DNA of 29,300 nt, taken from the IMG/VR virus record IMGVR_UViG_3300017759_000044, positions 1-29,300 of that record; one strand, written 5' to 3'. Source of the DNA: a virus. Positions 1 through 17,100 of the stretch are shown here, piece by piece. The stretch's first letter is position 1. Every line of letters begins with the position of its first letter. Under the pieces are notes generated by a model. The model was not told the DNA's origin and did not search any database. It saw only the letters and a list, made by a program, of their open reading frames with translations. A program made the position numbers and the translations under genes.

Positions 1-36
1 GAACGATCAGTATTCAACTGATTATTGAACGTACAT
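1..36. repeat. Short inverted repeats downstream of small terminase
   Basis: The stretch after the small terminase stop holds alternating copies of TTCAA and TTGAA (13-17, 25-29, 36-40). ATTGAA at 24-29 pairs perfectly with TTCAAT at 36-41 around a 6-nt loop, and TTCAA at 13-17 can pair with 25-29 instead. No T-run follows on either strand, so this is not a clear terminator. On the minus strand an ATG at 36 is followed by a stop after four codons, so the next leftward gene starts outside the window. Confidence 0.35.
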
Positions 37-498
37 TCAATGAGTGACATCTGACTCATCGATATCTGACTCGTCGACAACTGGCAAGGATAGCTCAGAC
101 AACTTACGTTTAAGATCGTTCTCGATGTCGTTACTGGAACGCTCGGTCACATCTTCGATGCGTGTAGTGTACATACCTGAGACCTTTGCGAGGATTGACA
201 ACGACTGAACCTGAGTCGATTCCAGATCGATTGTTCCAGATATATGATCGCGTAGGGTACGTGTGACGAGTTCTTGGCTGGATACACTCCGAGCCATATT
301 AAGATCACTCTTTCGCTTAATAATCGCGTTAACCGTACTCGCTATATACTCCAGCTTCATCAGCTTAGAAGCGCTGTTTCTGACCGTCTGACTAGAACCG
401 TTACTGTCGTATGCTTCTCTATATGCATCGGCTTGAGTTTTACCGCTCGCGACCAGCTCGCAAAATCTGCGTTGTTTAGCAGTGAGTTTATCAGTCAT
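37..498 (-). CDS. Terminase small subunit (Terminase_2 type)
   Basis: Predicted small terminase, which recognises the packaging site on phage DNA and hands it to the large ATPase/nuclease subunit. The N-terminus has the family's opening helix-turn-helix (LTAKQRRFCELV, then SGKTQADAYREAY, residues 5-30). Helical segments follow (about residues 35-110), then an acidic tail ending ESDIDESDVTH. Length (153 aa) is normal for the family. The ATG at 498 is preceded on the minus strand by GGAG, 9 nt away. It is the only gene on this strand at this end and is transcribed away from the early operon. The large subunit would be expected just to the left, outside the window. The family is assigned by motif recognition; the DNA target is unknown. 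Confidence 0.85.
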   Translation of the reverse strand: MTDKLTAKQRRFCELVASGKTQADAYREAYDSNGSSQTVRNSASKLMKLEYIASTVNAIIKRKSDLNMARSVSSQELVTRTLRDHISGTIDLESTQVQSLSILAKVSGMYTTRIEDVTERSSNDIENDLKRKLSELSLPVVDESDIDESDVTH

Positions 499-660
499 CT
501 TTTATAGCTCCGTTTTATTCGATAGCTGAGATCATACATGCATACTATTGACAAGTCACCACTAGACGCACGCAGAGACGATCTGAGCGACTTTATCACT
601 GGCCCTAGTGCTAGTATCAAAAACAAATTACTTTGCGACATGTGACATTCTGAGCAATGC

Positions 661-675
661 GTTACTTCAAGTAAC
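661..675. promoter_or_regulatory. Perfect dyad GTTACTT-C-AAGTAAC
   Basis: Seven-base arms around a single central base form a 15-bp palindrome in the non-coding gap between small terminase and the rightward operon. The half-site shares GTTAC with the TGTTAC repeats immediately downstream. The arrangement is typical of an operator for a dimeric repressor, but no repressor gene is recognised in the window. Confidence 0.5.
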
Positions 676-704
676 ACATCGACATATTACAAATACATAT
701 TTAT

Positions 705-773
705 TTGTTACATAACAACAACTTACTAATGTCAAGTCCTGATTTGTTACCGCAAGTGTTACCGATATGTTAC
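705..773. repeat. TGTTAC repeat cluster with palindrome TTGTTA-CA-TAACAA
   Basis: TGTTAC occurs at 706-711, 745-750, 757-762 and 768-773. The last three are spaced 12 and 11 bp apart, so they lie on nearly the same face of the helix. The copy at 706 is half of a palindrome (705-718, 6-bp arms, 2-bp centre), and another copy lies at 867-872. The surroundings are AT-rich. This fits either an array of operator half-sites or origin iterons. Nothing in the sequence decides between them. Confidence 0.5.
707..735 (-). promoter_or_regulatory. Candidate leftward promoter toward small terminase
   Basis: On the minus strand a perfect TTGACA (735-730) is followed after 17 bp by TGTAAC (712-707), four of six matches to TATAAT. 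The -10 box lies inside the palindrome at 705-718, so a protein bound there would block RNA polymerase. It points at the small terminase gene about 210 bp away. This is a sequence match only. Confidence 0.35.
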
Positions 774-799
774 TGTGCTACTCATATCAGTGGAATATA

Positions 800-850
800 T
801 GACATAATAACACCTGACATTTTGACATAATTAATATGTGACTTTTTATT
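800..850 (+). promoter_or_regulatory. Candidate rightward early promoter with TGACAT repeats
   Basis: TGACAT occurs three times at 800-805, 815-820 and 823-828. The last forms a consensus -35 box TTGACA (822-827), followed after 17 bp by TTTATT (845-850, four of six matches to a sigma-70 -10). Transcription would start near 857 and read through the structured leader, the first hammerhead ribozyme and the operon from 1150. The -35 is strong and the -10 is weak. Confidence 0.4.
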
Positions 851-861
851 CCTTTACATTT

Positions 862-880
862 CAACATGTTACAAATGTTG
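862..880. repeat. Inverted repeat CAACAT / ATGTTG
   Basis: CAACAT (862-867) and ATGTTG (875-880) are perfect complements around a 7-nt spacer that completes another TGTTAC. It sits just after the predicted rightward start point, so it may act as an operator or form a 5' hairpin on the transcript. Confidence 0.35.
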
Positions 881-904
881 GCATGGATAATGCTTTACTC
901 TTGA

Positions 905-1071
905 TAAGTCGACAGCGACAGCGCCCACTACGGGCCACCGACACCTAGGGTCAATCGGTAGCGAGAAACACAGACTTAACTGAACGGCCCAGTATACGGT
1001 CGGACTCCAGAGGGACGCTCTATTGTGAGCAGATCAAAGGGATGACTTCAGAACATGCTGCGGTCTAGAGG
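905..1071 (+). ncRNA. Structured untranslated leader upstream of the first ribozyme
   Basis: This gene-free stretch is clearly more GC-rich than the AT-rich DNA before it and contains successive small hairpins. GCCC/GGGC is at 923-926 / 932-935. ACCGA/TCGGT is at 937-941 / 955-959 with an inner ACC/GGT pair. GCTC/GAGC is at 1017-1020 / 1027-1030. No open frame with a ribosome-binding site is evident and there is no tRNA T-loop. If the promoter near 822 and the ribozyme at 1072 are both active, this would be released as a leader RNA of about 220 nt ending at 1079. No known RNA family was recognised. Confidence 0.4.
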
Positions 1072-1127
1072 GTTAGATAAGCGCCTGAAGCTGGCGTTCT
1101 GACGAGGCCAGCAAGCCGAAATCTAAC
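1072..1127 (+). ncRNA. Hammerhead self-cleaving ribozyme 1 (type III topology)
   Basis: All elements of a hammerhead are present in the right order. Stem III is GTTAGAT (1072-1078) with ATCTAAC (1121-1127), seven perfect pairs. The cleavage triplet is AUA with H17 = A1079, so the predicted cut is 1079/1080. Stem I is AGCGCC (1080-1085) with GGCGTT (1093-1098), six pairs including one G-U, around a 7-nt loop. The core CTGACGA is at 1099-1105. Stem II is GGC/GCC (1106-1108, 1115-1117) with a 6-nt loop. GAA is at 1118-1120, and A1121 pairs with U1078 as required. GCU in loop I can pair with AGC in loop II, a plausible distal contact. The ribozyme ends 22 nt before the ATG at 1150, upstream of the GAGG ribosome-binding site. 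Stem III is the open helix, hence type III. Confidence 0.93.
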
Positions 1128-1149
1128 ACTATTAAATGAGGATATAACG

Positions 1150-1365
1150 ATGATTAAACATTCAAACACCGGCGAGAAAGTGACCCCATTGACAGCAGTC
1201 AAATATGAGATGGCTCATAAAATTGGCGGGCTATTTTATGTTAACTGGGAGGATGAATACCCAGACGCGACTGAGCGAGAGCTGAAGCTGCTAGAGCATC
1301 ATGCTGAGGTGCTGGTTGATCGACTCGCAAAATTGCTAGGAGATCAGGGCTGCTGGACTGGATAA
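1150..1365 (+). CDS. Small acidic protein of unknown function between two ribozymes
   Basis: A 71-residue protein with no recognised family. The second half is predicted helical and charged (ERELKLLEHHAEVLVDRLAKLL, residues about 43-64, divided here as ERELKLLEHH and AEVLVDRLAKLL), preceded by an aromatic/acidic stretch FYVNWEDEYPD. The ATG at 1150 has GAGG 9 nt upstream. The TAA stop (1363-1365) ends one base before stem I of the second hammerhead ribozyme, and the first ribozyme ends 22 nt before the start codon, so this gene is packed between two self-cleaving RNAs. As first gene of the rightward operon it is probably expressed early. Possible roles such as a small host-takeover or regulatory protein are guesses. 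Confidence 0.75.
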   Translation: MIKHSNTGEKVTPLTAVKYEMAHKIGGLFYVNWEDEYPDATERELKLLEHHAEVLVDRLAKLLGDQGCWTG

Positions 1366-1366
1366 A

Positions 1367-1425
1367 TCAACACTGACGAGAGCCAGCTGGTAACTGGTCG
1401 AAACCGCAGCGATGCGGTCTGTTGA
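1367..1425 (+). ncRNA. Hammerhead self-cleaving ribozyme 2 (type I topology)
   Basis: A second complete hammerhead. Stem I is TCAACA (1367-1372) with TGTTGA (1420-1425), six perfect pairs, and is the open helix. Core CTGACGA is at 1373-1379. Stem II pairs GA and CCAG (1380-1381, 1383-1386, with G1382 bulged) with CTGGTC (1394-1399) around a 7-nt loop. GAA is at 1400-1402. Stem III is ACCGCA (1403-1408) with TGCGGT (1413-1418), capped by the GNRA tetraloop GCGA. The cleavage triplet is the classic GUC with H17 = C1419, so the predicted cut is 1419/1420. It begins right after the stop codon of the 71-residue gene. The downstream product would start 26 nt before the ATG at 1446, keeping its AAGGAAAG ribosome-binding site. 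Its stems share no sequence with ribozyme 1, so it is not a simple duplicate. Confidence 0.94.
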
Positions 1426-1445
1426 AACCATATAAGGAAAGCAAC

Positions 1446-1682
1446 ATGCAATATCAAGCGACCGATCATTTTTGGCAGCGAGCGCGGGAGCGCCAGCTGT
1501 TGAGCCGATACGCGGATATCATTGCAGCAGTAAAGCAGGGCCGAAAAATTCCGCAGCGAAACAATAGAGGCGAGCTGCTGTCTGACGTATTCGCGCATAT
1601 AGGCGAGCAGATAACTGTTATTGCTCAGGTCACTGAGCAGACAACCAATTTAATAACTATCTATGAAACGAAGGGAATATAA
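1446..1682 (+). CDS. Small DUF4258-like protein
   Basis: A 78-residue protein. The N-terminus (TDHFWQRARERQL) followed by a short helix (YADIIAAVKQGRKI), then alternating strands ending VIAQVTEQTTNLITIYETK, resembles the DUF4258 / toxin-like RNase fold pattern. In that family a His and an Arg near the start and a C-terminal beta sheet are conserved. The match is by pattern only. The start is the ATG at 1446, with AAGGAAAG 8-9 nt upstream; a TTG 24 nt earlier is inside the ribozyme stem and is rejected. It follows the second hammerhead directly and ends 2 nt before the DUF3150 gene, so the two are probably translated from one mRNA. Whether it is an active nuclease cannot be told. Confidence 0.7.
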   Translation: MQYQATDHFWQRARERQLLSRYADIIAAVKQGRKIPQRNNRGELLSDVFAHIGEQITVIAQVTEQTTNLITIYETKGI

Positions 1683-1684
1683 CT

Positions 1685-2701
1685 ATGGAAAACAAACTTC
1701 AAATGATGCAGCAAAGCGCGAGCGATGCTGTAAAAACCGCAGCAAATAATTTTGTTTTGCTGAGCGTCAAAGTATCGTTCTGGGATGGCGTAGCAAATCT
1801 CACTGGTGCTGCTGAGAAAGCAGCTCTCAACGCTGGAGCTGATCCTGATGGTACGCGCATGTATAAAAATCTGCTAGGCCAATTTCACGGAAAATTGCGA
1901 GAAGTCAAAACAAAATTCCGCAAGCTTAGAACAGCTCTCGATATTGCTTCGATACCCTACGCTCTCGCTCAAGATGACGGCCAGCGACGAGGCGAGAAAA
2001 TGCTGCACGTTACAAGGTACCCAAAAGTTCTTGCTGAACTAATCGCATTACGAGATTCAGCTTTCGATCAGCTCTCAGAATTTTTGAGCAGATACGACGA
2101 GTATCGCTCGCAGGCGCTTGATCAAAATTTCGGCACTTGGAGAGCTGAAGCTGAGAAATTATTTCCGACCAAAGCCGAGGTGATGGCTAAATTTTGCATC
2201 GAGATCAGTGACCCTAAGCCTTTACCAGTGTTCAGCGATGCTCAGCAAGCGACTTTCAATGTTCCAGCTAATGTCATGGCCGAAATTGTCGCTCAGTCTA
2301 ACGCTGCTATATCTAGGCAGTTAGAAGGAGCTAAACAAGATCAGATTCAGTCTGCTCTCAAAACTTGCGAGACGGCCCTTAAACAGCTCACTGATGGCAA
2401 GCGATTTCATCAGTCCGTTATTGATAACGTCAAGCAAGAGGCCGTTAAACTTGGCGAGATCAGTCAGGGATACGATGGCGATCATCGTGTCAAAAAAATC
2501 GCCGAGACTATGCTCGACGGTATCGCTAATGTGAGTGAACCTGAGCAGTGGAAAAATCACGATGGCAAGAAAGCAGAAGCCAAGCTTGCTGCTGAGAAGT
2601 CAGTTCAAAATCTCAAGCGCATGGCTCAAGCTGCACCAGTCGCACCTATTCCTGACTCGTCAGGCGTGATACTTCCAGAGATCACAGCCGATCTTATTTA
2701 A
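1685..2701 (+). CDS. DUF3150 family protein
   Basis: A 338-residue mostly helical protein matching the DUF3150 pattern: an N-terminal SVKVSFWDGVANLT segment, then MYKNLLGQFHGKLREVKTKFRKLRTAL (residues about 60-85, quoted here as MYKNLLGQFHG and KLREVKTKFRK), and a C-terminal helical part. DUF3150 genes are typically found in phages and plasmids beside MoxR-type AAA ATPases and VWA-domain proteins, which is the arrangement here: the AAA gene starts 32 nt downstream. Function is unknown. As an inference from gene order, it may be an adaptor or substrate of the ATPase/VWA pair. The start ATG at 1685 lies 2 nt after the previous stop, with GGGAA upstream. Confidence 0.8.
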   Translation: MENKLQMMQQSASDAVKTAANNFVLLSVKVSFWDGVANLTGAAEKAALNAGADPDGTRMYKNLLGQFHGKLREVKTKFRKLRTALDIASIPYALAQDDGQRRGEKMLHVTRYPKVLAELIALRDSAFDQLSEFLSRYDEYRSQALDQNFGTWRAEAEKLFPTKAEVMAKFCIEISDPKPLPVFSDAQQATFNVPANVMAEIVAQSNAAISRQLEGAKQDQIQSALKTCETALKQLTDGKRFHQSVIDNVKQEAVKLGEISQGYDGDHRVKKIAETMLDGIANVSEPEQWKNHDGKKAEAKLAAEKSVQNLKRMAQAAPVAPIPDSSGVILPEITADLI

Positions 2702-2733
2702 TATTAACTCTATGAAACCAAAGGAAAAATGTT

Positions 2734-3930
2734 ATGACTACTAAAACTCAAAAGACTACTAAAACTCAAAATATTCTCACTACAACAGCCGAGCTAATCA
2801 AAAATCACTTGCCGATCTTGATGGCAACGCAGACCGAATCAGGTTATCAGGGCTCGATGTCGGCTGTAGTGGTCGGCGCTGCCGGCACTGGTAAAACGTA
2901 CATTATGACTAATCAAGTTAGGCAGCTATGGGCTGATGCCAATGGTGTCAGTCTCGATGATGTCGGAATCTTGGTTTATCGGGCTGCTGATCGTGATGCT
3001 GCTGAATTCGCTGGCTTGATGATGCCTAGTAAGAATGCTGCTGGTGAGCTGCACACGGTCGCTAGTATTCCTGATCTTGTATCTCAGATCAGATCGCTGC
3101 GCGATCATGGCAAGTCGCATATCGTCCTAGTGCTTGATGAGATCATGCAGGCGAGCCAAGATGTGCAAAAAACGCTGAGCGATCTGCTTGACCGCAATAC
3201 CAATTGCCTTGGAGGTCATGACTTAGGCGCTGGAATTTTCGTGGTCGGCACTGGCAATCGACAGGCTGACAAGTCAGGCGCGAGGCCAGCACTAGGTCAT
3301 CTCAGAAATCGCATGTGCCTTTTTGAGCTGGAGGGATACAACGGAGATACTGTCGCTGAATGGGTGCGCGACTATGCAGAGCCAGCAGGCATATTGCCAG
3401 CGATTATCGATGTTGCGAGAGATCATGCCGACGATAATTTTTTCGCCGATGCTGTCCCGATTGATGGCGGTTTTTGTTCTTTCAGAGCGCTGACTAACGC
3501 GAGTCGATTGATCAGCACGTACATGGAGCGCACTGGCAAAGTCAAGCTGAGCATCAGCATGCAAGGGCTGGTCGCTGCCGTTGTCGGCGAGAGCGCTGCT
3601 ACGATCATCGCAGATCATTTTGACTGCGCGAATGAGGTTCCCACAGCAGATGACATCTTAAACAGTCCAGAAACGGCGATGGTTCCTGATCAGACAGGTT
3701 ATCAGAATATCGCTGGAACGCTGGCCTTACAGCTTGCTGTTGACTCTCAGTCAGCTGACGCAGCTATCGTGTACATAACGCGATTGAGACGCGACTTGCA
3801 GGTTCAGCTAGGTGTCAGATTGCTCAATAAATCTGAGCGCATCGGCAGCATTCTGATCAGCGCGACCGCTAATAAATTCATCAGAGAGCATCAAGAACAA
3901 ATCGCTCTCGCTTCAGATATGGAGGTATAA
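2734..3930 (+). CDS. MoxR/CobS-type AAA+ ATPase
   Basis: A 398-residue AAA+ ATPase. Walker A is GAAGTGKT (residues about 48-55) and Walker B is VLVLDE (about 131-136). A sensor region follows in FVVGTGNRQ, with an arginine-rich stretch HLRNRM behind it that could hold the arginine finger. The overall plan and the partner gene point to the MoxR/CobS branch, whose members work as chaperone-like remodellers with a VWA-domain partner. The VWA-peptidase gene begins one base after this stop, with GGAGG (3921-3925) inside this gene's end, so the two are almost certainly co-translated. The target of the complex is unknown. Cobalt chelation, the namesake activity of CobS, is unlikely since no cobalamin genes are present. 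Confidence 0.85.
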   Translation: MTTKTQKTTKTQNILTTTAELIKNHLPILMATQTESGYQGSMSAVVVGAAGTGKTYIMTNQVRQLWADANGVSLDDVGILVYRAADRDAAEFAGLMMPSKNAAGELHTVASIPDLVSQIRSLRDHGKSHIVLVLDEIMQASQDVQKTLSDLLDRNTNCLGGHDLGAGIFVVGTGNRQADKSGARPALGHLRNRMCLFELEGYNGDTVAEWVRDYAEPAGILPAIIDVARDHADDNFFADAVPIDGGFCSFRALTNASRLISTYMERTGKVKLSISMQGLVAAVVGESAATIIADHFDCANEVPTADDILNSPETAMVPDQTGYQNIAGTLALQLAVDSQSADAAIVYITRLRRDLQVQLGVRLLNKSERIGSILISATANKFIREHQEQIALASDMEV

Positions 3931-3931
3931 C

Positions 3932-5419
3932 ATGCAAGCCAAAAAACATTTTGATAATACTAATCCTGAGATGTCGGACTCTAAACAATTCGCGTCAGCG
4001 ATGATCATCTTGTCAGCCAAAGCTCGCATATACTGGCGCTTTGTCATTATGCATGAAGTTATCTGGACTCAAAAGTTGCCGACTGCTGCTACCGATGGGG
4101 TTTATATTTATGTCAATCCTGACTTCTTCACCAATTTACCGAGCGATAGCCAGCGAGCGTTTTTGCTAGGGCATGAAGTCGGTCACATGATTTTGAGACA
4201 CCCGCAACGTGGCAAGGCTTTTCGCAAGCGAGAATTTTTTCGCATAGTGAAGGGCCAGCGTATTCCTTTTGACCATAAACTTTTTAATCGCTCTGCTGAT
4301 TTAGTCATCAACGACGATCTACTAGCGCATGGTCTTGAGAAAATCGAGTGCGGTCTATACAGCGAAAAATACGGTCGCGATCACTTAGTAGACGATGTCT
4401 ATATGGAGCTATGGCAAGAGCAGCAAGAGCAGCAAGATCAGCAGCAAGATCAGCAAGATCAGCAGCAATCTAATGACAGCTCTGACAGCTCTGACGATGC
4501 TGACGATGCTGACGGCACTGACGGCACTGACGGTTCTGATGGTTCTGATGGTTCTGATGGTTCTGATGATGCTGACGGTTCTGATGATTCGCAGCAGGAT
4601 GATTCATCTACTCCTGACGAGTCAGCAGGTACAGATCATGACGGACACGATACCCATCTTGAGCCGATATATGATGGCACTGCTGAAGAAGTCGCGCAGG
4701 CCGAAGCTGAAGACACTCGTACACTTGATCGCACTCTTAAAGATGGTATCGAGGATCAAGAGCAAGCGGTTGAGGATGGCGAGTGTCGCGACATCGGACA
4801 TGGCGCTGGACTTGACGAGCGAGTCAAAGCTTCACAAAGCCGAATGAGCGCACCTATAACATGGCGCGACGAGATACCTGATCTGCTTCAAAAGGCTGGC
4901 AAGGGTGGCTCAGTGTCATGGTCTCGCATACACTCACGACGATTCAATCTGTACGGTGTTGTGTCACCAGTCACCAAAGGCTCGCTCAATCAAGCAGCGA
5001 TCATTATCGACATATCATACTCTGTTGATCGAAACGCTCTGAACGAATATCTGCACGTTGTTGCCGATATGATTGACGAGTTGCAGCCGACTGATGGCTT
5101 TCTGATATTGCTTACAGCCGACAGCGTTGAGCATTGCTACGAGGTCTATTCAGGTGCTGAGCTGCTCGATCTTGAGATTCCCTACGGTGGCGGAACCAAC
5201 ATGTCAGCAGGCTTGGATTACATCGAAGAGCAGGGCTATTCGCCCGATCTTGTCATGGTCTTTACTGACTACGAAGTCACTCATGATGATGGCAAGCGAC
5301 TGGTTGATGAGGGCTGCGTGATCGTGATGGACGGCCAGCCATCAGAATACGCTCGTTGGGTAATGGGCCGAACAGACCCGCGAGTGATCACTGTGGATGA
5401 CAGCTCACTCGCAGCGTAA
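3932..5419 (+). CDS. Metallopeptidase-like / VWA-domain protein (DUF2201-like)
   Basis: A 495-residue two-domain protein. The N-terminal domain carries a zinc-protease signature HEVGH (residues 81-85), with SADLVINDDL downstream (about 115-124), as in the putative metallopeptidase domain of DUF2201 proteins. A low-complexity linker follows (about 161-225: Gln/Glu/Asp repeats, then Ser/Asp/Gly repeats). The C-terminal VWA-like domain has a MIDAS-type DISYS (about 360-364), a GGGTNMSAGL loop and FTDYE, all expected metal-binding positions. It presumably partners with the AAA ATPase encoded immediately upstream, as MoxR-VWA pairs do. The protease motif suggests it may cut a protein rather than only bind it. 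No family member's phage function is known to me. Confidence 0.85.
   Translation: MQAKKHFDNTNPEMSDSKQFASAMIILSAKARIYWRFVIMHEVIWTQKLPTAATDGVYIYVNPDFFTNLPSDSQRAFLLGHEVGHMILRHPQRGKAFRKREFFRIVKGQRIPFDHKLFNRSADLVINDDLLAHGLEKIECGLYSEKYGRDHLVDDVYMELWQEQQEQQDQQQDQQDQQQSNDSSDSSDDADDADGTDGTDGSDGSDGSDGSDDADGSDDSQQDDSSTPDESAGTDHDGHDTHLEPIYDGTAEEVAQAEAEDTRTLDRTLKDGIEDQEQAVEDGECRDIGHGAGLDERVKASQSRMSAPITWRDEIPDLLQKAGKGGSVSWSRIHSRRFNLYGVVSPVTKGSLNQAAIIIDISYSVDRNALNEYLHVVADMIDELQPTDGFLILLTADSVEHCYEVYSGAELLDLEIPYGGGTNMSAGLDYIEEQGYSPDLVMVFTDYEVTHDDGKRLVDEGCVIVMDGQPSEYARWVMGRTDPRVITVDDSSLAA
4414..4605 (+). repeat. In-frame short tandem repeats coding the acidic linker
   Basis: The linker is made of degenerate 9-bp units. 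The first run is based on CAGCAAGAK (coding QQE/QQD). The second is based on GAYGGYTCT, GACGGCACT and GACGATGCT (coding DGS, DGT, DDA). Several units are exact copies, for example four consecutive gatggttct-type units near 4530-4565. Such arrays change length by slippage without breaking the frame. Confidence 0.8.
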
Positions 5420-5447
5420 CTAGTCACGACTTCACTTAACTTTAAAC

Positions 5448-5463
5448 GCTGCCTTCGGGCAGC
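5448..5463 (+). promoter_or_regulatory. C(UUCG)G tetraloop hairpin before a ribosome-binding site
   Basis: GCTGCC (5448-5453), TTCG (5454-5457) and GGCAGC (5458-5463) form a perfect 6-bp stem capped by the exceptionally stable UUCG loop. No T-run follows, so it is not an ordinary terminator. The hairpin touches the AAGGA ribosome-binding site (5464-5468) of the gene starting at 5477, a position suited to mRNA end protection or translation control. Confidence 0.65.
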
Positions 5464-5476
5464 AAGGAATTCTATT

Positions 5477-5752
5477 ATGATGAGTACATTTTATATCGAC
5501 ATGCCAAGCTGGATAAATTATATGAATCGTCCGGTGGAGCTAAAAGTTATTGCTGACTTGTCACCCATAGAGCCTGACGTAGGCATCATGGGCAATGGCA
5601 AGCAGGCGGTCGAATTATTGTCAGTTTATTGCGACGAAAAAGGATACGATCCGAATGAGGATATTCTGGAATGTTTTTCAACAGAGAGACAGGACGATAT
5701 CGCTCAGTTAATTTATCGACAACTAGAGGAGAGCAGTGATGAGGAGAGATAG
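5477..5752 (+). CDS. Hypothetical acidic protein
   Basis: A 91-residue acidic protein with no recognised family. It has an N-terminal FYIDMPSWINYM segment, a central IMGNGKQAVELLSVYC helix and a Glu-rich C-terminus (ECFSTERQDDIAQLIYRQLEE). ATG at 5477 is preceded by AAGGA with 8-nt spacing, and a second ATG lies one codon later. It follows the VWA gene after a 57-nt gap containing a UUCG hairpin, and its last 14 nt overlap the next gene. It also contains one TGACTTGTCA palindrome (5554-5563). Confidence 0.7.
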   Translation: MMSTFYIDMPSWINYMNRPVELKVIADLSPIEPDVGIMGNGKQAVELLSVYCDEKGYDPNEDILECFSTERQDDIAQLIYRQLEESSDEER

Positions 5753-5969
5753 AAGAAAAAAACAAGATGGTGGTGGATTGATGATGGCTGGCGGGTTTTT
5801 ATGCGGGGTGTTTACTGTTGTTGTTGTCATGTCAGCAATAAGCATCGGCTCGCGCTACGACATTATCGAAGCTGAACGTGCTGAAAGTTTATGCACAGAA
5901 ATGTTAGAGTTACACAAATCCACAGATGGTAGATATGGCTGGCCTAGTTGCAGCCATCTACTATCATAA
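5739..5969 (+). CDS. Small single-pass membrane protein
   Basis: A 76-residue protein with a basic N-terminus (RRDRRKKQ), one hydrophobic segment (LMMAGGFLCGVFTVVVVMSA, residues about 15-34) and a C-terminal part with two cysteines that would lie in the periplasm by the positive-inside rule. ATG at 5739 is preferred over the GTG one codon earlier because AGAGGAG is well placed upstream. It overlaps the previous gene by exactly 14 nt. Size and topology fit a holin- or spanin-like or superinfection protein, but no family is recognised and the endolysin is far away in another operon. Confidence 0.65.
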   Translation: MRRDRRKKQDGGGLMMAGGFLCGVFTVVVVMSAISIGSRYDIIEAERAESLCTEMLELHKSTDGRYGWPSCSHLLS

Positions 5970-5983
5970 CTTAGGAGTAAGCT

Positions 5984-6460
5984 ATGAAACTTGAGGATGT
6001 CTTAGACCCATTATCGTGTGCAGGCTTGGTACACGAGGGCTATGCTGGATTTACTGAAAACAACGAATTTTTCTTAAACCTACGAATGTTTTACGACAAA
6101 AAACATTCTTGGCTTGAGGTTCCTATACACCTACTTGCGATGATGAAATTGCTGCCAAACGATTTCTCAAAGTATTGCTATATCGACAGAGAAAAATCTC
6201 GACTGTATTTAGACGAAGATGTTGATGTTGGCATGTTTATGAAAGCGTGTTATGACTGGCCGAAAAATATAAACAGAGGAATCAATATGTCAAAAGCTAT
6301 GGAATTCTTGGGAGATGACGCAATCGCAGAATGGAATACGATTAAGGATTGTAAATTAGTTGGAGAATCTCTCGTTGATTCTATCCAATTTAAAACAAAT
6401 TCAGAAACCGATTTCATCAAAGATTTTGCCAAGAACGATAAAGGCCAGTCTATCCATTAG
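5984..6460 (+). CDS. Hypothetical protein, last gene of the left operon
   Basis: A 158-residue protein with no recognised family and no obvious motif. The sequence is mixed alpha/beta and mildly acidic, with aromatic-rich NNEFFLNLRMFYDKKHSWLEV near the start (residues about 26-46, quoted as FFLNLRMFYDKKHSW). ATG at 5984 has AGGAG about 7 nt upstream and the gene starts 14 nt after the membrane protein. It ends the rightward operon by overlapping the end of the leftward operon by 11 nt (6450-6460), so the two operons converge with no room for a dedicated terminator. Confidence 0.7.
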   Translation: MKLEDVLDPLSCAGLVHEGYAGFTENNEFFLNLRMFYDKKHSWLEVPIHLLAMMKLLPNDFSKYCYIDREKSRLYLDEDVDVGMFMKACYDWPKNINRGINMSKAMEFLGDDAIAEWNTIKDCKLVGESLVDSIQFKTNSETDFIKDFAKNDKGQSIH

Positions 6461-6845
6461 ACGATAATCTTCTGTCACTAACCAGAACGAGGCACTGGCG
6501 CAGCAGGTTAAGGTTTGTTGCTTCTAACATGTCACTAGCAACAGCATTGACCAAAACACTCGCTGCGTCATGCCCATACTCCTTTCGCACCATCATGAGA
6601 GTTTTTCGCAAAGGCAACATTCCGTTGTAATGATTCTTGTGATCCCCTCCTCCGCATGGCATGCCGTCAAAGTTAATCGCTTTAACGTGAATGCCAGCCT
6701 TTAAACATTGGCCAGCGACATACTCACCAGCCATATGCTCGCGCACTCCGATAACTTTTAAATCGAGCAGCGAATCAAGCAGCGTCTGATTCTTCACTCG
6801 CGCTACAGGTATCAGCCCACCATCAATGACAATTTCCCTATTCAA
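6450..6845 (-). CDS. Hypothetical protein, coupled to primase-helicase
   Basis: About 131 residues, unknown function. A glycine/histidine-rich motif (DGMPCGGGDHKNHYNG) follows a helical region and suggests a metal- or nucleotide-binding site, but no family is recognised. The most likely start is a TTG at 6845, whose sequence TTGA overlaps the TGA stop of the primase gene by 4 nt, a typical translational-coupling arrangement. A TTG 24 nt earlier is also open but lies deeper inside the primase gene. It is the last gene of the leftward replication operon and converges with the left operon. A role in DNA replication or nucleotide handling is inferred only from position. Confidence 0.65.
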   Translation of the reverse strand: MNREIVIDGGLIPVARVKNQTLLDSLLDLKVIGVREHMAGEYVAGQCLKAGIHVKAINFDGMPCGGGDHKNHYNGMLPLRKTLMMVRKEYGHDAASVLVNAVASDMLEATNLNLLRQCLVLVSDRRLSSNG

Positions 6846-8572
6846 AAATCTACATCCATATCTGTCCAATGCTTTTGATTTACATGAGCTGACTGAGGTG
6901 GCTTGTAATCTGAATATCTTCCTGTTGACTTGTCATATGTAACTGGCACCGATCCTTGCTTTCCGATCCACTTGAATCGAGATTTCCAGCAATGGACTTC
7001 AGTATCATCGCCCTTTCGATGAACAGTTACTCCCAAGTCAGCTTTAGCAAACCATGCTGCCGATCCTGAGATAGACATGCCTGTCGGTATTGGCATGCTG
7101 CCATCTTCACGAGGATACATTTTGGCTGGATGCGCGACAAACCAGACATGAACGCCATGCGCTTTAGCGAATGCAGTAACTTTAGTAAGCATTGATGAGA
7201 TGCTCTGAGACTCGTCAGAATTCGGATTTTTTTCGATGTAATTATAAGGATCAATGACCAAGCCCCTTACACCCAAACGCATGACCGCTTGCTTGGCTCG
7301 ATCAATTATTGAGTCGATAGTGCTGACAACGCCATCGCGAGCGTCAAGAAAAACAAAATGCTTATCAACGAAGTCACTCGCATGGGACAGCTCTTGATCA
7401 GTCATGCGTTGACCATCGCCTTCAAAAAATGCTTTACCTATAATTTTTTCAGATAGCTTTGCAATATGAAAATGAGGAGGATTCTCAAACGAAGCAACGG
7501 CAAACTTCCACGAACAACGTTGAGCAAGATTGACCATGAGCTGATCGACAAACTCAGATTTACCTGAGCTAGGCACTCCTGTGACCACAGATAACTGACC
7601 TTCTGCTATTGTGAACAAGTCATCAACAGAGGCAAGCCCCGTAGATTCTCCAGCACCAACTCCTTTTTTGTATATTTCATGAACATCGGCTATGTAAGAT
7701 TTTGCCGAGTAAACACCTTTAAGCGGCAGAGGTTGTGACTTACTAACAACATCTTGCAATGCCTGAGCGCCGTGTTTAGAAATTATATCATTCGCATCCT
7801 TGCAGTCGTTTGGATATTGAATCGCCCAGCATTTTGCTCTTCCGATCCGACGCGCAATTTCCTCAGCCAAAGCATGACCAGCCTTATCGTTATCGGTAGC
7901 CAGAATGATCTTGTCACAACGCTCAATAATTTCTCTCGCTTCCCAGATATAGGAAAACTTATTATCGTCTTCAGGCGAGAATGATTTACCGCTAACAACT
8001 TGTGGCGCTCCATTAGGGCAACTAACGGCAGGAATGCCAGCCGAAGCAAGAGCAAGAGCATCGCATTCACCTTCAACAATTATTAATTCTTTTGCGTCAT
8101 GAGGTATAAGCTCAATACCGTAAAACTGTCGGGCTGCTCCCTCTTGTGTAAATGCTTTTTGATTTATAGCTCGCCATTTTATTGCGCTCGGCTGTGACTG
8201 ATCACCATAAACAAATCCAACAGCATCAAGCTCGCCATGACCATTGAAATATCTTTTACCAGAAATTACAGGCAAATCAATATCTTGCGACCATAGAATC
8301 CCACGAGAGTTAAAGAAATTTGTTATTGATAACTGGTCAACAGTAGCGCGAGGTTGTATTCGCGTCACATTCGACTCCTTATGAAAGTATTCTTTTTTAC
8401 GGAATAATGAACCGCTCTCGCCACAATGATGACAAAAGTACAGTTTTGATCCGTCATTATTGACGGTTACGGAAAGCGTTTTTTCGTGTTTCTTTTTTCT
8501 GTCGCCACTGCATGCTGGACACGCGATACGACAGCTATCGACTACCGCCGATAACGACTCCTCAATTTGCAT
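6842..8572 (-). CDS. Phage DNA primase-helicase (T7 gp4/Twinkle-like)
   Basis: A 576-residue bifunctional replication protein. An N-terminal zinc ribbon has Cys18, Cys21, Cys47 and Cys50 (CPAC and CHHC) for template recognition by the primase. A TOPRIM domain follows, with VEGECDALAL (about residue 165) and ATDNDKAGH (about 225), the acidic metal-binding positions of primer synthesis. The C-terminal RecA/DnaB-like helicase has Walker A GVPSSGKS (about 333-340) and Walker B GLVIDPYN (about 440). Length is normal for gp4-type proteins. It would unwind DNA and lay primers at the fork for a DNA polymerase encoded outside this window. It lies downstream of RusA in the same leftward operon. Confidence 0.92.
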   Translation of the reverse strand: MQIEESLSAVVDSCRIACPACSGDRKKKHEKTLSVTVNNDGSKLYFCHHCGESGSLFRKKEYFHKESNVTRIQPRATVDQLSITNFFNSRGILWSQDIDLPVISGKRYFNGHGELDAVGFVYGDQSQPSAIKWRAINQKAFTQEGAARQFYGIELIPHDAKELIIVEGECDALALASAGIPAVSCPNGAPQVVSGKSFSPEDDNKFSYIWEAREIIERCDKIILATDNDKAGHALAEEIARRIGRAKCWAIQYPNDCKDANDIISKHGAQALQDVVSKSQPLPLKGVYSAKSYIADVHEIYKKGVGAGESTGLASVDDLFTIAEGQLSVVTGVPSSGKSEFVDQLMVNLAQRCSWKFAVASFENPPHFHIAKLSEKIIGKAFFEGDGQRMTDQELSHASDFVDKHFVFLDARDGVVSTIDSIIDRAKQAVMRLGVRGLVIDPYNYIEKNPNSDESQSISSMLTKVTAFAKAHGVHVWFVAHPAKMYPREDGSMPIPTGMSISGSAAWFAKADLGVTVHRKGDDTEVHCWKSRFKWIGKQGSVPVTYDKSTGRYSDYKPPQSAHVNQKHWTDMDVDF

Positions 8573-8591
8573 AGTATGACCCTGTTGATTT

Positions 8592-8885
8592 TTAGACCCC
8601 TAACTGCTCCAGCAGTTTATTTATTATCGCTCTCTTTTGAACATTCTTTAATTCAATAGTCAGTGCGACTGTTTTTAAAATATAATTGTAACCTATTTCT
8701 AGCTCATCGCAGTCCTCTTTAAATTGTTTTGATAAAAAATATCTATGCGCATTCTTCCGTAGTTTTGCTTTGTTCGATGCGAGGTCGCACAAGGCAAGCC
8801 TAACTATTTTTTTTAATAACTCAGTCCGTGGCCCAGACGTAAATAATACTTCGGGGATTTTCTCTATCGAGGGCGTGGTAGACAT
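8592..8885 (-). CDS. Hypothetical helical protein
   Basis: A 97-residue basic, helical protein (LLKKIVRLALCDLASNKAKL, then a second helical half TVALTIELKNVQKRAIINKLL) without a recognised family. The ATG at 8885 lies 65 nt inside the RusA gene, but an excellent AAGGAGAA ribosome-binding site stands 2-8 nt upstream, so the long overlap is probably real. It is sandwiched between RusA and the primase-helicase, which suggests an accessory role in replication or recombination; this is inference only. Confidence 0.65.
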   Translation of the reverse strand: MSTTPSIEKIPEVLFTSGPRTELLKKIVRLALCDLASNKAKLRKNAHRYFLSKQFKEDCDELEIGYNYILKTVALTIELKNVQKRAIINKLLEQLGV

Positions 8886-9183
8886 GCTTCTCCTTTACTT
8901 GTCTGTCGTTTTTGTATATGAGTCCTTGCATACAATCAAGAATTACTGACTCATCGAGATCAGGTCTTCTGCTGGCGTAATAAATAGTAATATGCACAGC
9001 AAGATCGCCTTCTAAAAACTCAGGTAGTTTTTGTACCTGTTTTTCAAAATTTTTAACATAATCTCTAGCTTTCTGACTCTTAATTATTGCTGGCTTCTTA
9101 CCGAACATAACAATTTTACGTGAGTTAGCCTTGCTTGCTGGCTCACCAATAACTTCTATAAATGTTGCTTTGTCTGGAATCAT
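8821..9183 (-). CDS. rusA: RusA-family Holliday junction resolvase
   Basis: A 120-residue RusA-type endonuclease, which cuts four-way junctions formed during phage replication and recombination so that branched DNA can be packaged. It has the family's opening strand with a GEP motif (residues 13-15). The diagnostic block RPDLDESVILDCMQGLIY is followed by KNDRQV, giving Asp75, Asp77 and Asp93 as the likely metal-binding residues corresponding to the catalytic aspartates of E. coli RusA. Length matches the family. It is the first gene of the leftward replication operon and is divergent from the recombination operon, separated by only 49 nt that must hold both promoters or lie downstream of them. 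Confidence 0.9.
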   Translation of the reverse strand: MIPDKATFIEVIGEPASKANSRKIVMFGKKPAIIKSQKARDYVKNFEKQVQKLPEFLEGDLAVHITIYYASRRPDLDESVILDCMQGLIYKNDRQVKEKHVYHALDRENPRSIIYVWATD

Positions 9184-9232
9184 GTATTAATATCGCTATT
9201 CGTTTTACGCAAGTTATCACAGGAGATATATT

Positions 9233-9592
9233 ATGTCACGTATTGGTGATTACATTATTGAAAAAGAAGAAAGCGGGGAGCTTGAACAAGATTTGAATCC
9301 ACCGGAGCTTGATATTCCTGAGTCCACTGGCATTGAAATTGATGATTCTGTGCCTATTCCAAGTCATTTGGTCGAGCGCAGTAATCTCAATTCTAAATTT
9401 GGTCATTTGCCTTTTGAAAAAATGGATACTGGTAATTCCTTCGCTCTTGAGGGACTGACTGAGAAAGAGTTCACAGCGCTTCGTGCGCGAGTTAGCAGAG
9501 CTAATAAAAGGGAGATAGGAAATTTTGCGTTACAAACCGTCAATAAGCACGACGATGGAGCGGTTGACGCAAGAGTTTTCCGAATAGAGTAA
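9233..9592 (+). CDS. Hypothetical protein with small C-terminal phage domain
   Basis: A 119-residue protein. The first half is acidic and probably disordered (EKEESGELEQDLNPPELDIP). The second half (FEKMDTGNSFALEGL, then RARVSRANKREIGNFALQTV, ending VDARVFRIE) resembles a small domain I have seen repeatedly in phage and plasmid proteins of unknown function, with a GxSF-type turn, a basic helix and a final VxRI strand. ATG at 9233 is preceded by AGGAGA. It opens the rightward recombination operon, and its TAA stop overlaps the nuclease ATG by one base (TAATG). Confidence 0.7.
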   Translation: MSRIGDYIIEKEESGELEQDLNPPELDIPESTGIEIDDSVPIPSHLVERSNLNSKFGHLPFEKMDTGNSFALEGLTEKEFTALRARVSRANKREIGNFALQTVNKHDDGAVDARVFRIE

Positions 9593-10467
9593 TGTTTACT
9601 AATATTTATAATTTGCCTGATCCAGTCGTTGCAGCGCTGTCAGATGACAAGTACGACAGTGGACATGTCAATAGCAGCGTTACGACGCTCATAGACTCGC
9701 CACAGGTTAAAATACTTTCCCGAAAGCATAAGGATGACATTTCTATTGATGTCTCTGAACGCCTCTGGTCAGTGCTTGGGACCGCCGTACACACGATGTT
9801 TGAAGACTATGCTACTGGAGACTATCTCAGTGAAGAAAGATTATTTACTGAGATAAATGGTTGGAAAATATCTGGCGCTATAGATATACAGAAAGCAGAG
9901 GCAGATGGATCGGTAACAATACTTGACTATAAGTGTACTAGCGTTTGGTCGGTGATATTTGGCAAGAAATCTTGGGAACAACAGCTTAACTTCTATGCTT
10001 ATCTTGTCAATGCATGCAAAGGGACCGAAGTTAACAAGCTTCAAATTCTTGCTGTGCTACGAGATTGGAAACAATCCGAGGCAGAATTCAAGCCAGATTA
10101 TCCCAAGCAGCCAATCGTTAAGATCGACATACCCTTATGGACGACAAGTCAGCAGAAACAATTTGTCGAAGCACGGGTTGCGCTGCATCAGCAAGCCGAA
10201 TGGGATTATCTTAACGGAAACACCATTTCAAAATGCAGTGATGAAGAAAGGTGGGTAAGACCAACCAAATTTGCTGTCATGAAGAAGGGGAGAAAGCGAG
10301 CCATTAAACTTCACGATGATGAGCATGACGCTCAAACGCATAGTGAAACGCTTGGGAAAGATCATTTTATAGAAACTAGAACAGGTCAGGCTATGCGGTG
10401 TGAGAAGTATTGTCCAGCAGCAATATTCTGTCCTCAATATCAAGGGAGCTTAAATGAACGAAACTGA
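9592..10467 (+). CDS. PD-(D/E)XK exonuclease with C-terminal cysteine cluster
   Basis: A 291-residue nuclease of the PD-(D/E)XK superfamily, Cas4/AddB/RecB-like. The core shows a GTAVHTMFEDY helix (residues 63-73), SGAIDI with Asp98, ILDYKC with Asp112 and Lys114, then WEQQLNFYAYL supplying the Gln/Tyr of motif IV. The C-terminus has Cys270, Cys274 and Cys280 (C-x3-C-x5-C). With an earlier cysteine (in ISKCSDEERW) these could bind an iron-sulfur cluster as in Cas4 and AddB. It is likely the strand-resecting partner of the ERF annealing protein two genes downstream. The start ATG overlaps the previous stop by one base. Confidence 0.85.
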   Translation: MFTNIYNLPDPVVAALSDDKYDSGHVNSSVTTLIDSPQVKILSRKHKDDISIDVSERLWSVLGTAVHTMFEDYATGDYLSEERLFTEINGWKISGAIDIQKAEADGSVTILDYKCTSVWSVIFGKKSWEQQLNFYAYLVNACKGTEVNKLQILAVLRDWKQSEAEFKPDYPKQPIVKIDIPLWTTSQQKQFVEARVALHQQAEWDYLNGNTISKCSDEERWVRPTKFAVMKKGRKRAIKLHDDEHDAQTHSETLGKDHFIETRTGQAMRCEKYCPAAIFCPQYQGSLNERN

Positions 10468-10684
10468 AATTATAGCAAAGGACAAAGCTGTTATGGGTAA
10501 AACCATCGGCATTGTGAGGGGTCTTAAAGGCAAGACAAGTATAGAAATGCAATTTTCTAGTGAGTCAGTGATATTTAAACCAGCAGAAGGTCAGCAGTTT
10601 AAGATTGATAACGCGCTGTTTAACTCATTGGATACCTTGGAAATCGTAAAAATCATAGAGGGTCACATAAATGGAAGCAACTAA
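10454..10684 (+). CDS. Hypothetical protein in recombination operon
   Basis: A 76-residue protein of mixed alpha/beta pattern (TIGIVRGLKGKTSIEMQF, then FKIDNALFNSLDTLEIVKII) with no recognised family. ATG at 10454 has AGGGAGC upstream. It overlaps the nuclease gene by 14 nt at its start and the ERF gene by 14 nt at its end, so translation of all three is probably coupled. Position between exonuclease and annealase suggests an accessory recombination role, which is not shown by the sequence. Confidence 0.65.
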   Translation: MNETEIIAKDKAVMGKTIGIVRGLKGKTSIEMQFSSESVIFKPAEGQQFKIDNALFNSLDTLEIVKIIEGHINGSN

Positions 10685-11252
10685 AGAGTTTAAAAAGGCA
10701 TGGTCTGAACAGAGAAAAAAGATCAAATGCCCTGAAAAGGGAGCTACGAATCCACACTTTAAATCTAAATATCGGAGCTGGGAAGTTACTGAGAAAGCTT
10801 TAAAGGATGCTGAGGTGGATTTTTATTTTGAATCACACAATAACGCAGATCAGGCTGGCGTTACTTGGTGGGTAATCCTTAATGACGAGGAAGCAGCAGT
10901 AGCTACATGCATGATCGACAAAGCTAAGCGTGATCCGCAGGCAACTGGCGGTTGCTACACATACGCTATGCGGTATGTTGTTCAGGTTCATCTTGGGTGG
11001 GGAATGCCAGACCTTGATGACGACGGCAACGAAGCAAGTGGCATATTGAACGAAGAGCAAGAGGTGGATTTGCTGGGTCAAGCATTTAGCATTCAAAAAA
11101 CATTGGCAGGCTTACAGAGTTGTTGGACAGAAAACGGCGATGTAATAAACCGAATGCATCAAAGCAATCAGAAAATGTACGAGAAGATCGTATCTTTATA
11201 TCAAAAAGCGCAAGCAAACATAAATAAGGAGATAGAAAATGCAGGACAATAA
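10671..11252 (+). CDS. erf: ERF-family single-strand annealing protein
   Basis: A 193-residue ERF-type recombinase, which anneals complementary single strands during phage recombination and genome end processing. Family landmarks in order are NPHFKSKYRSWE near the N-terminus, a beta-rich middle, DPQATGGCYTYAMRYVV (the conserved Q-xx-G-xx-TYA-RY motif) and DLDDDGNEA. The C-terminus is helical and variable, as usual. It is likely paired with the PD-(D/E)XK nuclease upstream and the SSB-like protein downstream. The start ATG has GAGGG upstream, and the gene overlaps both neighbours by exactly 14 nt. Confidence 0.88.
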   Translation: MEATKEFKKAWSEQRKKIKCPEKGATNPHFKSKYRSWEVTEKALKDAEVDFYFESHNNADQAGVTWWVILNDEEAAVATCMIDKAKRDPQATGGCYTYAMRYVVQVHLGWGMPDLDDDGNEASGILNEEQEVDLLGQAFSIQKTLAGLQSCWTENGDVINRMHQSNQKMYEKIVSLYQKAQANINKEIENAGQ

Positions 11253-14169: not shown

Positions 14170-17100
14170 CTACTTTGTTCTTCCCACCGTTTCATCATAC
14201 TTTCTGTTAAAACGAGCAATGGCTTGATCTTTCTGATCTTGCAGTTTCTCCTCGTTATCTTGAAGGCGTAAACGAATACCAATATCAGTAGACTCTAATA
14301 TTTTTTCTCTGACATCCGTTAATCTCTGATTTAAGCTTTTTATTCTGCGGTCAGTAGCTCTCAAAGCACTGTTCATTCGTATCGATTCGATATTGTCGGT
14401 ACGGAAATTAACTCTTTCTTGCCCCTTTAAATTATCAACGCGATTTACAATCTGCCTGATGTCATCTCTTCGATCATAATAATTTGATTGACTCTCCCTG
14501 AGATCAGCCTCTCCTTGTATCTTCCGAACAAAAGGTATCTCTCGTAATTCTATTTTCTCACCTGACCTTAACTTCCTCGCATATTCTGCTGAGCGAGTAG
14601 CAAACACCCCAGCACCGCCAGTAAAAGAATTTAAAAGATGATTCGCTACATCGGGACTTATATCAATGTTATAAAACGTGTTACCCGATTGCTGTTCATT
14701 ACCACCAGTAAATTCATTAAGAAACATAGCGGCATCTTTCATGAACTGCGGCGTACTAAGCATTCCCTTTGAGGAGTCAGGAGTAGGAGCCGCGCCCGGA
14801 AAGTCTTCTCGATATATGGGAGAACCAAAATAATTCTCATTGGCAACCAAATCAATCAGAGGCTTGGCTGCTTGAGGCGCAATCCCTTTTCCTAAAGCTA
14901 TTGCTGCGCTATCTGAGCTGGCAAACCCAAGAGGTGAAAAAGAGCCTATTGCTGCTGATGTTAAGTCACCAGTAGCTTGCAGCGGAGATTTTTGACCTAA
15001 CTCCATTTCAGCAAGATTCACACCTAGCAAATGAAAGATATTATATCCATATGGCAACGGTATCTTGTAATACTTTTCTGCCGACTCTTCAAAAGGAATG
15101 CCTAAGATTTTAGCTGCTGGCTCAAACACATCCTTCATAATAATAATATTTCTTTCTTTCTCGTAATCAGGAATATTATCGTAGTACGATCTACCGCCAT
15201 CATCTTCTTCGTCGCTAAAACTCTCGTTTAAATATGTGATTAAAGCGCCAAATCCTGTCATCGCTGTCATCATTCCTAATTTCTTTTTAGATGACATCCC
15301 TCTTGCGAAGTTAGCTGTTCCCTGAACAGATGCATTAAAGAAAAGGTATGCAGCATTTAACCCCTCGCCCATATTGCCCTTCCTGTTGAAGTTAACAGTC
15401 AGGTTTTTAGCAAGTGTCGCGGCTCTAGCATTAGCTTCTGCTGGGCTAATTCCAGCATCAATTAAAGACTTTCTAGCCTGCTTAAACACAGCAAATCTAA
15501 CGCCGTTTTCTACCGCCCCATTAACGTCACCAACAAAACCAGTAAAGGCATCCATTCTTTTTTTAGCTGAACCTTTGAACGTACCAGTAGCCATCTCGTC
15601 AAGAGCAGCTATATCCTTAGCTGTCTCAGCAGGGCTTCTAGCATAAAAGAAGTCAGTCTTAGCGCCAGACTCAAGGTAGGTGTCCCAGATTTTTTGAGTC
15701 TCTGCATCGAGATTTTTATTTCTTAGCCCTTTAAAAACCTGTCTAACACTTGGCAAAGTGTCTTTTAAAATGGCTTTTTTAAGTCCTTTTATATCTACAG
15801 CTTTACCACCAGCCATTGATTCCTCGCCAACTATGTTAGCAAGCGCCGTTTGTATATCTCTGGTGAAGTTACTGATGACAAACTCTGGGTTGTAGCTTGT
15901 ATTCACAGCCGACAAAAACCTGTTAAGACCACGGAATACTTGAAGTATTGCGCTGCTGGACTGAGCGTCCATGCCAAGTAGGGCTTCGCTTAAACGCCTA
16001 TCGTACAAGACCATGTTACGTTGAACACCGTCTTGCTTGAATCCTATTGCAGTCTTTCCTTTTGGAATTGCTTCACCAATGCCAAGAACCTCCCAATATT
16101 CAGGATTTGGGTTATTCTCTATTAGGTTAAACAGCCTTTCACCAAACTCTTTGTTTTTGACACCACGTACTATTGCACCCTGCCTTGCGGCGTAAGCGTT
16201 GGCTAACGGATCAAAAGCCTGAGAACCAGTTCTTCCTGTTATCTTCTGGCCTTCTTTACCTTTAGTGCTAAGGTTATTAACGCTTGTCCTACGCCCTACG
16301 TTTTGATCAACCTCTTCCTTTAAGCTTAAAGGAGCTTCTGGGTTCTCTGCCTTACCTCGCATTGGCACATAGTATTTAAACTTGTCTGATAAACTATCGA
16401 ATTCTTTCTGACTAATTAGTCCGTATTTTAACTCGTCATCAAGAGAAGCCTGATTGATTGCATCAAAGTCAGCAGCAACGTTTAACATGTCAGCAGCAAG
16501 ACTGTTGCCGCCAACCCAGTCTTTAGCGGTGTCGTCCCAGCGAAGACCAAACTCTTTCGCCATGACATCTTTTACATAAGCATCAGTGAGTCTTACGCCA
16601 TTGAGAGTTCCAGTACCGCCGTCTGTTAAATCTGGATTGTATGAGTTAGTTCCTTCATTAGCCTGATTTCTTGCCCGAACAAATTCATTGCGCTCCATCG
16701 CATGTCTTAATATCAAGAAGTCATTTAGCTCTTGTCGTGTGATGCCCTTGTCATTTAACTTTACCAATAATGGCTTAATAACTTTTTCTTGCAGCTTGCG
16801 GAATTCATTGCCAACCTTGCCTGTTATTGACTCTATACCGTCATAAGCTGACTCAAGAGTAGGGAGCGAATCTATTCCTGCTTTTTTAGCTATACCCTGC
16901 TCTACTCTTTTCAAATCAAGGAACTTGTCTTGTACGTTAAATACAAGAGTGTCAAATTTACCTTTAGCCTTACTCCAACCGCCAGCTTGTGTGGGTGGCT
17001 GAGTAACCTCGTTAACAGCATTTGATCCAGCGACACCTCCAGCTTGACTTGCGACTACTTCAGCAGTTGCTTGCGACATACCATTATTAGTTAAAAAATC

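Follow-up and report, generated by a model that had tools for sequence, protein, structure and literature searches.

The window, by which we mean the whole 29,300-nt stretch analysed, is a 29.3-kb contig of an uncultured virus (IMGVR_UViG_3300017759_000044). Near its left end, the gene for the terminase small subunit (TerS) and a rightward operon diverge from a long intergenic region, and a type III hammerhead ribozyme motif lies at the operon side of that region (Table 1). The initial annotation had placed this motif in the 5' leader of an early operon; the leader of a rightward phage operon is borne out, while the early status of the operon is only made plausible by its genes (AAA ATPase, VWA/metallopeptidase-like). 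No sigma-70-like promoter was found on the plus strand of the window leader. The gap between TerS and the operon also contains three copies of a repeat of about 21 nt with TTAC (674-876), possibly operators or replication repeats. Elsewhere in the window, a protein of 2,038 aa encoded on the minus strand at 14170-20286 contains the large polyvalent protein domain LPD38 (PF18857).

Window positions 1-8000 had no DNA match among 50,697 phage records, the TerS proteins of the window and of locus L206 had no match among cultured relatives, and the cultured-phage matches of the ATPase and the primase-helicase were all below 60% identity; a search of genome contigs with the ATPase alignment found no relative. 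The relatives were taken from IMG/VR, in which L006 is the same phage. The identity of their ATPases to that of the window is 78% in L002, 64% in L003, 62% in L004, 54% in L005 and 41% in L172, and all of them share the gene order of a reversed TerS, a long gap and the operon.

Table 1. Features at the locus. Positions refer to the window, except for the hairpins of the last row, which are given in the loci named.
Feature	Position	Strand	Basis or remark
TerS	37-498	-	Reads away from the ribozyme; Pfam PF03592 E 6e-6, phrog_51 E 2.6e-12
Intergenic region and leader before the ribozyme	499-1071	none	984-1128 kept in L002 (78.5% over 149 nt)
Type III hammerhead ribozyme	1072-1127	+	Base-by-base reading; descriptor; shuffles; covariance model 40.8 bits, E 4e-10
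Stem III, 7 bp, open-ended	1072-1078 with 1121-1127	+	Base-by-base reading
H17 = A1079 (not G)	1079	+	Base-by-base reading
Predicted cleavage point A1079/A1080	1079-1080	+	Established hammerhead numbering
Stem I, 6 bp including one G-U	1080-1085 with 1093-1098	+	Base-by-base reading
Loop I with GCU	1086-1092	+	Complementarity; possible contact to AGC of loop II
Core CTGACGA	1099-1105	+	All invariant CUGANGA positions present
Stem II, 3 bp	1106-1108 with 1115-1117	+	Base-by-base reading
Loop II with AGC	1109-1114	+	Complementarity
Core GAA	1118-1120	+	Invariant positions present
A1121-U1078 pair next to H17	1121/1078	+	Base-by-base reading
Putative Shine-Dalgarno word GAGG (likely)	1138-1141	+	Read off the sequence
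ORF 1150, first past the ribozyme, 71 aa, no family	1150-1365	+	Otherwise only in L006
ORF 1422	1422-1682	+	Homologue is the first gene after the L005 ribozyme
ORF 1685, 338 aa, no family	1685-2701	+	Homologues in L002-L005 and L172 (directly behind the L172 hammerhead)
AAA ATPase	2734-3930	+	phrog_1297 E 6e-39
VWA/metallopeptidase-like protein	3932-5419	+	PF13203 E 2e-21
Hairpins like T7 RNase III sites	L003 3625-3674; L004 3639-3685; L005 3861-3908; also L181, L182, L187		4/5 or 2/3 loop, 10-11-bp upper stem

A complete type III hammerhead motif

Re-reading of positions 1072-1127 confirmed a genuine, complete type III hammerhead ribozyme motif. All invariant core positions and the helices of 7, 6 and 3 bp in type III order, as initially described, agree with the re-reading in coordinates and stem lengths, and the start codon of ORF 1150 lies 22 nt downstream on the same strand. 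Residue H17 is also A in 11 of 32 phage type III examples among the matches listed. With a descriptor that requires the invariant core and 3 bp or more in every stem, 1072-1127 is the strongest match in the window; when both strands of 8,422 dinucleotide-shuffled versions of the window were scanned, none reached stems of at least 6/3/7. In addition, a covariance model (R1) was built from 26 of the 32 type III examples among the matches listed, leaving out the window family (L001, L002 and L006), L071 and L120 (repeats of L023 and L030) and L119 (long loop). When 63 kb were searched, R1 recognised the window motif at the score given in Table 1 and had no second match within the 29.3-kb record. 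The covariation count of the 26 rows is circular because a pairing-aware scan chose them, and it was kept out of the evidence.

The Rfam hammerhead models, the first check proposed with the initial annotation, gave no hammerhead in the window at the gathering score, nor at E 10 within 900-1400, which we ascribe to limits of the models. Rfam found one hammerhead (type II) among seven hammerhead loci (six strict ones and L005); since other good phage hammerheads also go unmatched, its silence on the window is weak evidence. The gathering scores likewise pass over consensus-fitting phage hammerheads in L010, L022, L023, L002 and L006, and phage annotation by Rfam will under-count hammerheads. As for the descriptor, one and the same hammerhead-like match in L149 (618-667), L158 (983-1032), L130 and L170 is without the usual ATG spacing and looks like coding sequence that the descriptor matched falsely.

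In the predicted folds, the hammerhead of the window (-16.1 kcal/mol) is not the minimum-energy structure (-19.1 kcal/mol), because GCUGGC and GCCAGC (1090-1095 with 1107-1112) can pair across the loops in a competing helix. Stem I appears early when growing fragments of the window are folded in prediction. The loops are complementary in GCU/AGC in the window and in UGCU/AGCA in L002; 3-4 bp are possible in L002, L005 and L172, and in L172 the two halves of the contact are swapped between the loops. As a general trait of phage type III hammerheads this contact was dropped: across 31 examples among the matches listed it is weak, slightly above shuffles (19 and 48 of 2,000 equal it).

Conservation, orientation and spacing among phages

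Type III hammerheads are present in L002 (R1 49.6 bits, E 7.7e-13), L005 (46.3 bits, E 7.8e-12) and L172 (36.8 bits, E 4.6e-8). Compared to the window, their stems carry 2, 4 and 6 pair changes on both sides, respectively, with the stem pairing kept; the compensatory changes that had been suggested as a check are therefore found, together with an intact core and helices. Stem II of L005 is non-canonical, with one non-pair, although a bulged drawing is also possible. The gene behind the ribozyme is ORF 1150 in the window, another ORF in L002 and the homologues of ORFs 1422 and 1685 in L005 and L172, where the L172 hammerhead precedes a later gene of the operon and not the first. The distance from hammerhead to start codon is 18 nt in L002 and 22 nt in L005. 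Given these paired changes and the differing next genes, the ribozyme is kept while both its stem letters and its neighbouring gene vary.

The competing helix of the window offers a ready-made off state, and regulation has been proposed for the halovirus hammerhead HHphage in the available text of PMC3088659; a ligand, a protein, salt or temperature might accordingly turn cleavage on and off, so that the element would control the operon rather than process its transcript constantly. However, L002 and L005 have lowest-energy folds without the competing helix, the loops measure 4-8 nt in the four relatives compared and hold no aptamer-sized insert, and RNase III-like hairpins occupy the same place in relatives (see below). 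We regard such a regulated switch as unlikely. A different possibility concerns the upstream product, if cleavage served to define the 3' end of a leader RNA (up to about 200 nt) acting as a small RNA. Part of the leader is indeed conserved in L002 (Table 1), and a short block is common to all five relatives compared; on the other hand, window leader plus ribozyme folds no better than shuffles (z -1.0), which led us to drop a structured leader RNA, and it is common for hammerheads to lie between genes, where no leader RNA would be released. A released small RNA is thus very improbable. The short block itself (CAAnGGG...CTTCA, window 1030-1051) precedes the ribozyme, or the nearby end of the leader, by about 20-45 nt in all five aligned relatives, and at the same place in L002-L005.

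The orientation of hammerheads relative to TerS was compared in two sets of loci. In the first, 28 rows have both TerS and a hammerhead (two contigs are listed twice), and the nearest hammerhead among the matches listed is divergent from TerS in 24; in the others it lies downstream and convergent (L023, L056 and L071) or on the TerS strand (L029). The second set comprises 80 TerS loci (L164, L177-L255) fetched by TerS alignment, aiming at no hammerhead selection. The strict scan of these loci, covering 174 kb upstream and 239 kb downstream of TerS per strand, placed 32/32 hammerheads (27 distinct sequences) upstream of TerS on the opposite strand and left the other three quadrants empty, and shuffles of the 80 loci (8.9 Mb) yielded 1 match. 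With R1, run on 65 of the 80 loci, 19/19 matches were divergent. Because 6 of the 11 alignment rows used for fetching came from hammerhead-selected loci, and at least 6 of the 80 loci lie on contigs already collected (L164, L184, L190, L191, L192 and L246), the share of TerS loci with a hammerhead is not unbiased; among loci with at least 900 nt upstream, it is 26/58 by the strict scan and 30/58 once R1 adds L190, L191 and L221 and L192 is counted as the contig of L005. The 32/32 orientation result should be independent of that selection. By type, the 27 distinct sequences divide into nine of type III and one of type II within 750 nt of TerS, and nine of type II, seven of type I and one of type III beyond, a split that is a lead and not a test since the phages are kin. 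Other phages lead with type I (L010, L020, L024, L065 and L080). Hammerheads are common in mobile or circular-RNA elements such as retrozymes or viroids, according to the accessible part of PMC3088659; nevertheless, the window motif is a single copy in its record, its position behind TerS is fixed in relatives, and no reverse transcriptase or integrase family was found in the 22 distinct window ORFs scanned, which makes an origin of this kind scarcely conceivable.

The spacing to start codons was counted more widely. A pattern scan collected at least 120 viral loci, and the descriptor found at least 170 hammerheads in 108 of 126 loci when the relatives were included. For distinct hammerheads with enough sequence, a frame of 50 aa or longer that starts with ATG begins 8-35 nt past the motif in 111 of 148 (among the matches listed), versus 673 of 5,000 random places, and a Shine-Dalgarno-like word stands between motif and ATG in 82 of those 111. 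The same spacing is seen in 23/25 of type III, 84/115 of type I and 4/8 of type II among the matches listed, and in 23 of the 27 distinct hammerheads of the TerS set. A location 22 nt upstream of a phage gene, initially considered unusual, is therefore the normal one for phage hammerheads, and a halovirus example stands at 13 nt in the available text of PMC3088659. With a cruder gene caller, about half of the hammerheads fell inside a reading frame of 80 aa or longer on one strand or the other, and only 43/160 (among the matches listed) had a same-strand ORF no more than 60 nt away; this less clear picture is ascribed, though without proof, to spurious long ORFs. In L174, a 13.4-kb viral stretch, eight type I hammerheads occur on the plus strand at 5576-10953, each with an ATG no more than 40 nt behind.

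If the motif were a functionless relic or a chance match, its loss or replacement in L003, L004, L181, L182 and L187 and the unfavourable predicted fold in the window would be easily understood. This reading is most improbable in view of the shuffles, the paired changes that keep the motif in L002, L005 and L172, and a place and orientation that are fixed in many phages.

RNase III-like hairpins in relatives without a hammerhead

Neither the descriptor nor R1 found a hammerhead in L003, L004 (identical to L178), L181, L182 and L187. Right before the first gene, these five loci instead carry a hairpin of about 48 nt consisting of a lower stem, an asymmetric internal loop and a 10-bp upper stem. 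In L003 and L187 the internal loop is of the 4/5 form (ACUC/UAUGA), with upper stems that differ in letters and keep their pairing; L004, L005, L181 and L182 have a 2/3 variant. The same loop and build occur in the T7 record (L256) before genes 0.3 and 0.5, hairpins which we take to be RNase III sites, and can be recognised by eye before gene 1.1. R1.1, from between T7 genes 1.0 and 1.1, is an RNase III substrate of 60 nt whose internal loop is of the asymmetric 4/5 kind (PMC6121014, in the text available). A descriptor of the hairpin matched nowhere in 2.5 Mb of shuffled sequence, and one of its matches in the real loci is likely false (L085). A T7-like hairpin thus stands in the place of the hammerhead in relatives lacking the latter. 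L005 carries both elements, the hammerhead before its first gene and the hairpin before the ORF 1685 homologue, and L188 has neither; no T7-like hairpin was found in the window. Throughout the window family, the hammerhead or hairpin ends about 18-35 nt ahead of the start codon. Another stretch of L003 and L004, with GCGCAC/GTGCGC, was considered as a further ribozyme and dropped: it is readable as protein, and what the two loci share by position with the other lineages lacking a hammerhead is the hairpin, which lies downstream of it. Rfam gave nothing on the L004 leader.

On the TerS tree, the window clade comprises 18 rows (support 100/97). The hairpin occurs in the L178/L181/L182/L183 group (100/98) and, apart from it, in L187, with hammerhead lineages beside each. 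Since these hairpin groups stand apart, parsimony calls for at least two exchanges, in either direction, on a tree with one weak branch (86/16) and six rows too short to score. L190-L193 were labelled manually: L190 and L191 follow R1, L192 is the contig of L005, and L193, with a short flank and no R1 match, is labelled only by the likeness of its TerS.

What is new here is the exchange of a hammerhead with an RNase III-like hairpin. No earlier report of it was found in the literature searched, outside which most subscription papers lie, and this does not by itself show that it is unpublished.

Probable processing of the operon transcript

That relatives keep either a hammerhead or a T7-like RNase III hairpin at this place suggests that the job of both is the trimming of viral mRNA. 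The window hammerhead is probably a conserved cis-acting mRNA-processing element that trims the 5' end of the operon transcript. What the analysis observed is the motif, its conservation, place and orientation and its replacement by RNase III-like hairpins; self-cutting, the chemistry of the RNA ends and possible consequences for mRNA stability or translation are what we infer. Transcription would start somewhere in the region of about 570 bp that separates the operon from the divergently transcribed terminase gene. Once the emerging leader RNA folds stems I, II and III, the chain would cut itself between A1079 and A1080; the cut 3' of A1079 and the resulting 5'-hydroxyl end are predicted from known hammerhead chemistry. 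The upstream leader would be removed with a 2',3'-cyclic phosphate end, and the operon mRNA would be left with a uniform 5'-hydroxyl end carrying the folded stem I/II part, a structure expected to stay on the mRNA, since the cleavage site of a type III hammerhead is close to the 5' end of the motif. The new 5' end would lie about 70 nt before the start codon, with the folded part clear of the ribosome-binding site. This would be the same job as that of the RNase III processing site in T7 early mRNA.

Several observations count against mRNA processing. The hammerhead is not the lowest-energy fold, its stem II has 3 bp, it is absent in L003, L004, L181, L182 and L187, and L188 has neither element. 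The non-canonical stem II of L005, the place of the L172 hammerhead before a later gene and the lack of an Rfam match point the same way, as does the report that no activity was seen in vitro for 4 of the 18 consensus hammerheads tested (PMC3088659, available text).

The closest known case is in the haloviruses HF1 and HF2, where, according to the accessible text of PMC3088659, the hammerhead variant HHphage lies 13 nt before the first ORF of a polycistronic early transcript and the 5' end of the mRNA maps no more than 3 nt from the cleavage site. In both cases a tailed virus has a hammerhead that closely precedes the first ORF of an operon and shares its strand; however, HHphage is described as a core variant in an archaeal virus, whereas the window motif, from an unrelated phage, keeps the canonical core and lies 22 nt before the start codon. 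With this precedent, the window ribozyme is of an already known kind. Clustered prophage hammerheads also flank phage genes and have been proposed to cut long phage transcripts (PMC3088659), and hammerheads are associated with Mu-like phages (PMC10085705), as far as the available portions of these papers go; the window record differs in its single leader copy, divergent from TerS. T7 sites of the R1.1 kind (PMC6121014, in part) share with the hammerhead the place before a gene in relatives and the presumed job of transcript cutting, but they have another RNA fold, need a host enzyme and occur in the relatives, not in the window. The RiboJ insulator, in the portion of PMC7536230 available, is likewise a hammerhead in a 5' untranslated region before the ribosome-binding site and normalises the 5' end; unlike the window motif, it is engineered with an added hairpin, and the insulating effect is that of RiboJ.

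Based on the results presented above, we lean, on balance, towards the view that this phage group can exchange a hammerhead, whatever its topology, for a T7-like RNase III hairpin, both being interchangeable devices for cutting operon transcripts just before the ribosome-binding site. Lineages would switch between self-cutting and a host enzyme at the same site, with type III used in the leader, where structure is left on the 5' end of the mRNA, and types I and II between genes. The ribozyme is ordinary for its kind, and the specialist interest lies in the exchange, the fixed orientation relative to the terminase and the spacing to start codons. The role of hammerheads in bacteria and phages has been called an open question (PMC6155905), and the halovirus hammerhead is said to need further study (PMC7230728), both in the text available. 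A locus that holds a hammerhead or an RNase III-like hairpin in close relatives is a natural experiment, which predicts the same function for both elements. If the two are indeed interchangeable parts, phage hammerheads would gain a defined function, namely ribozyme-based mRNA maturation without a host nuclease.
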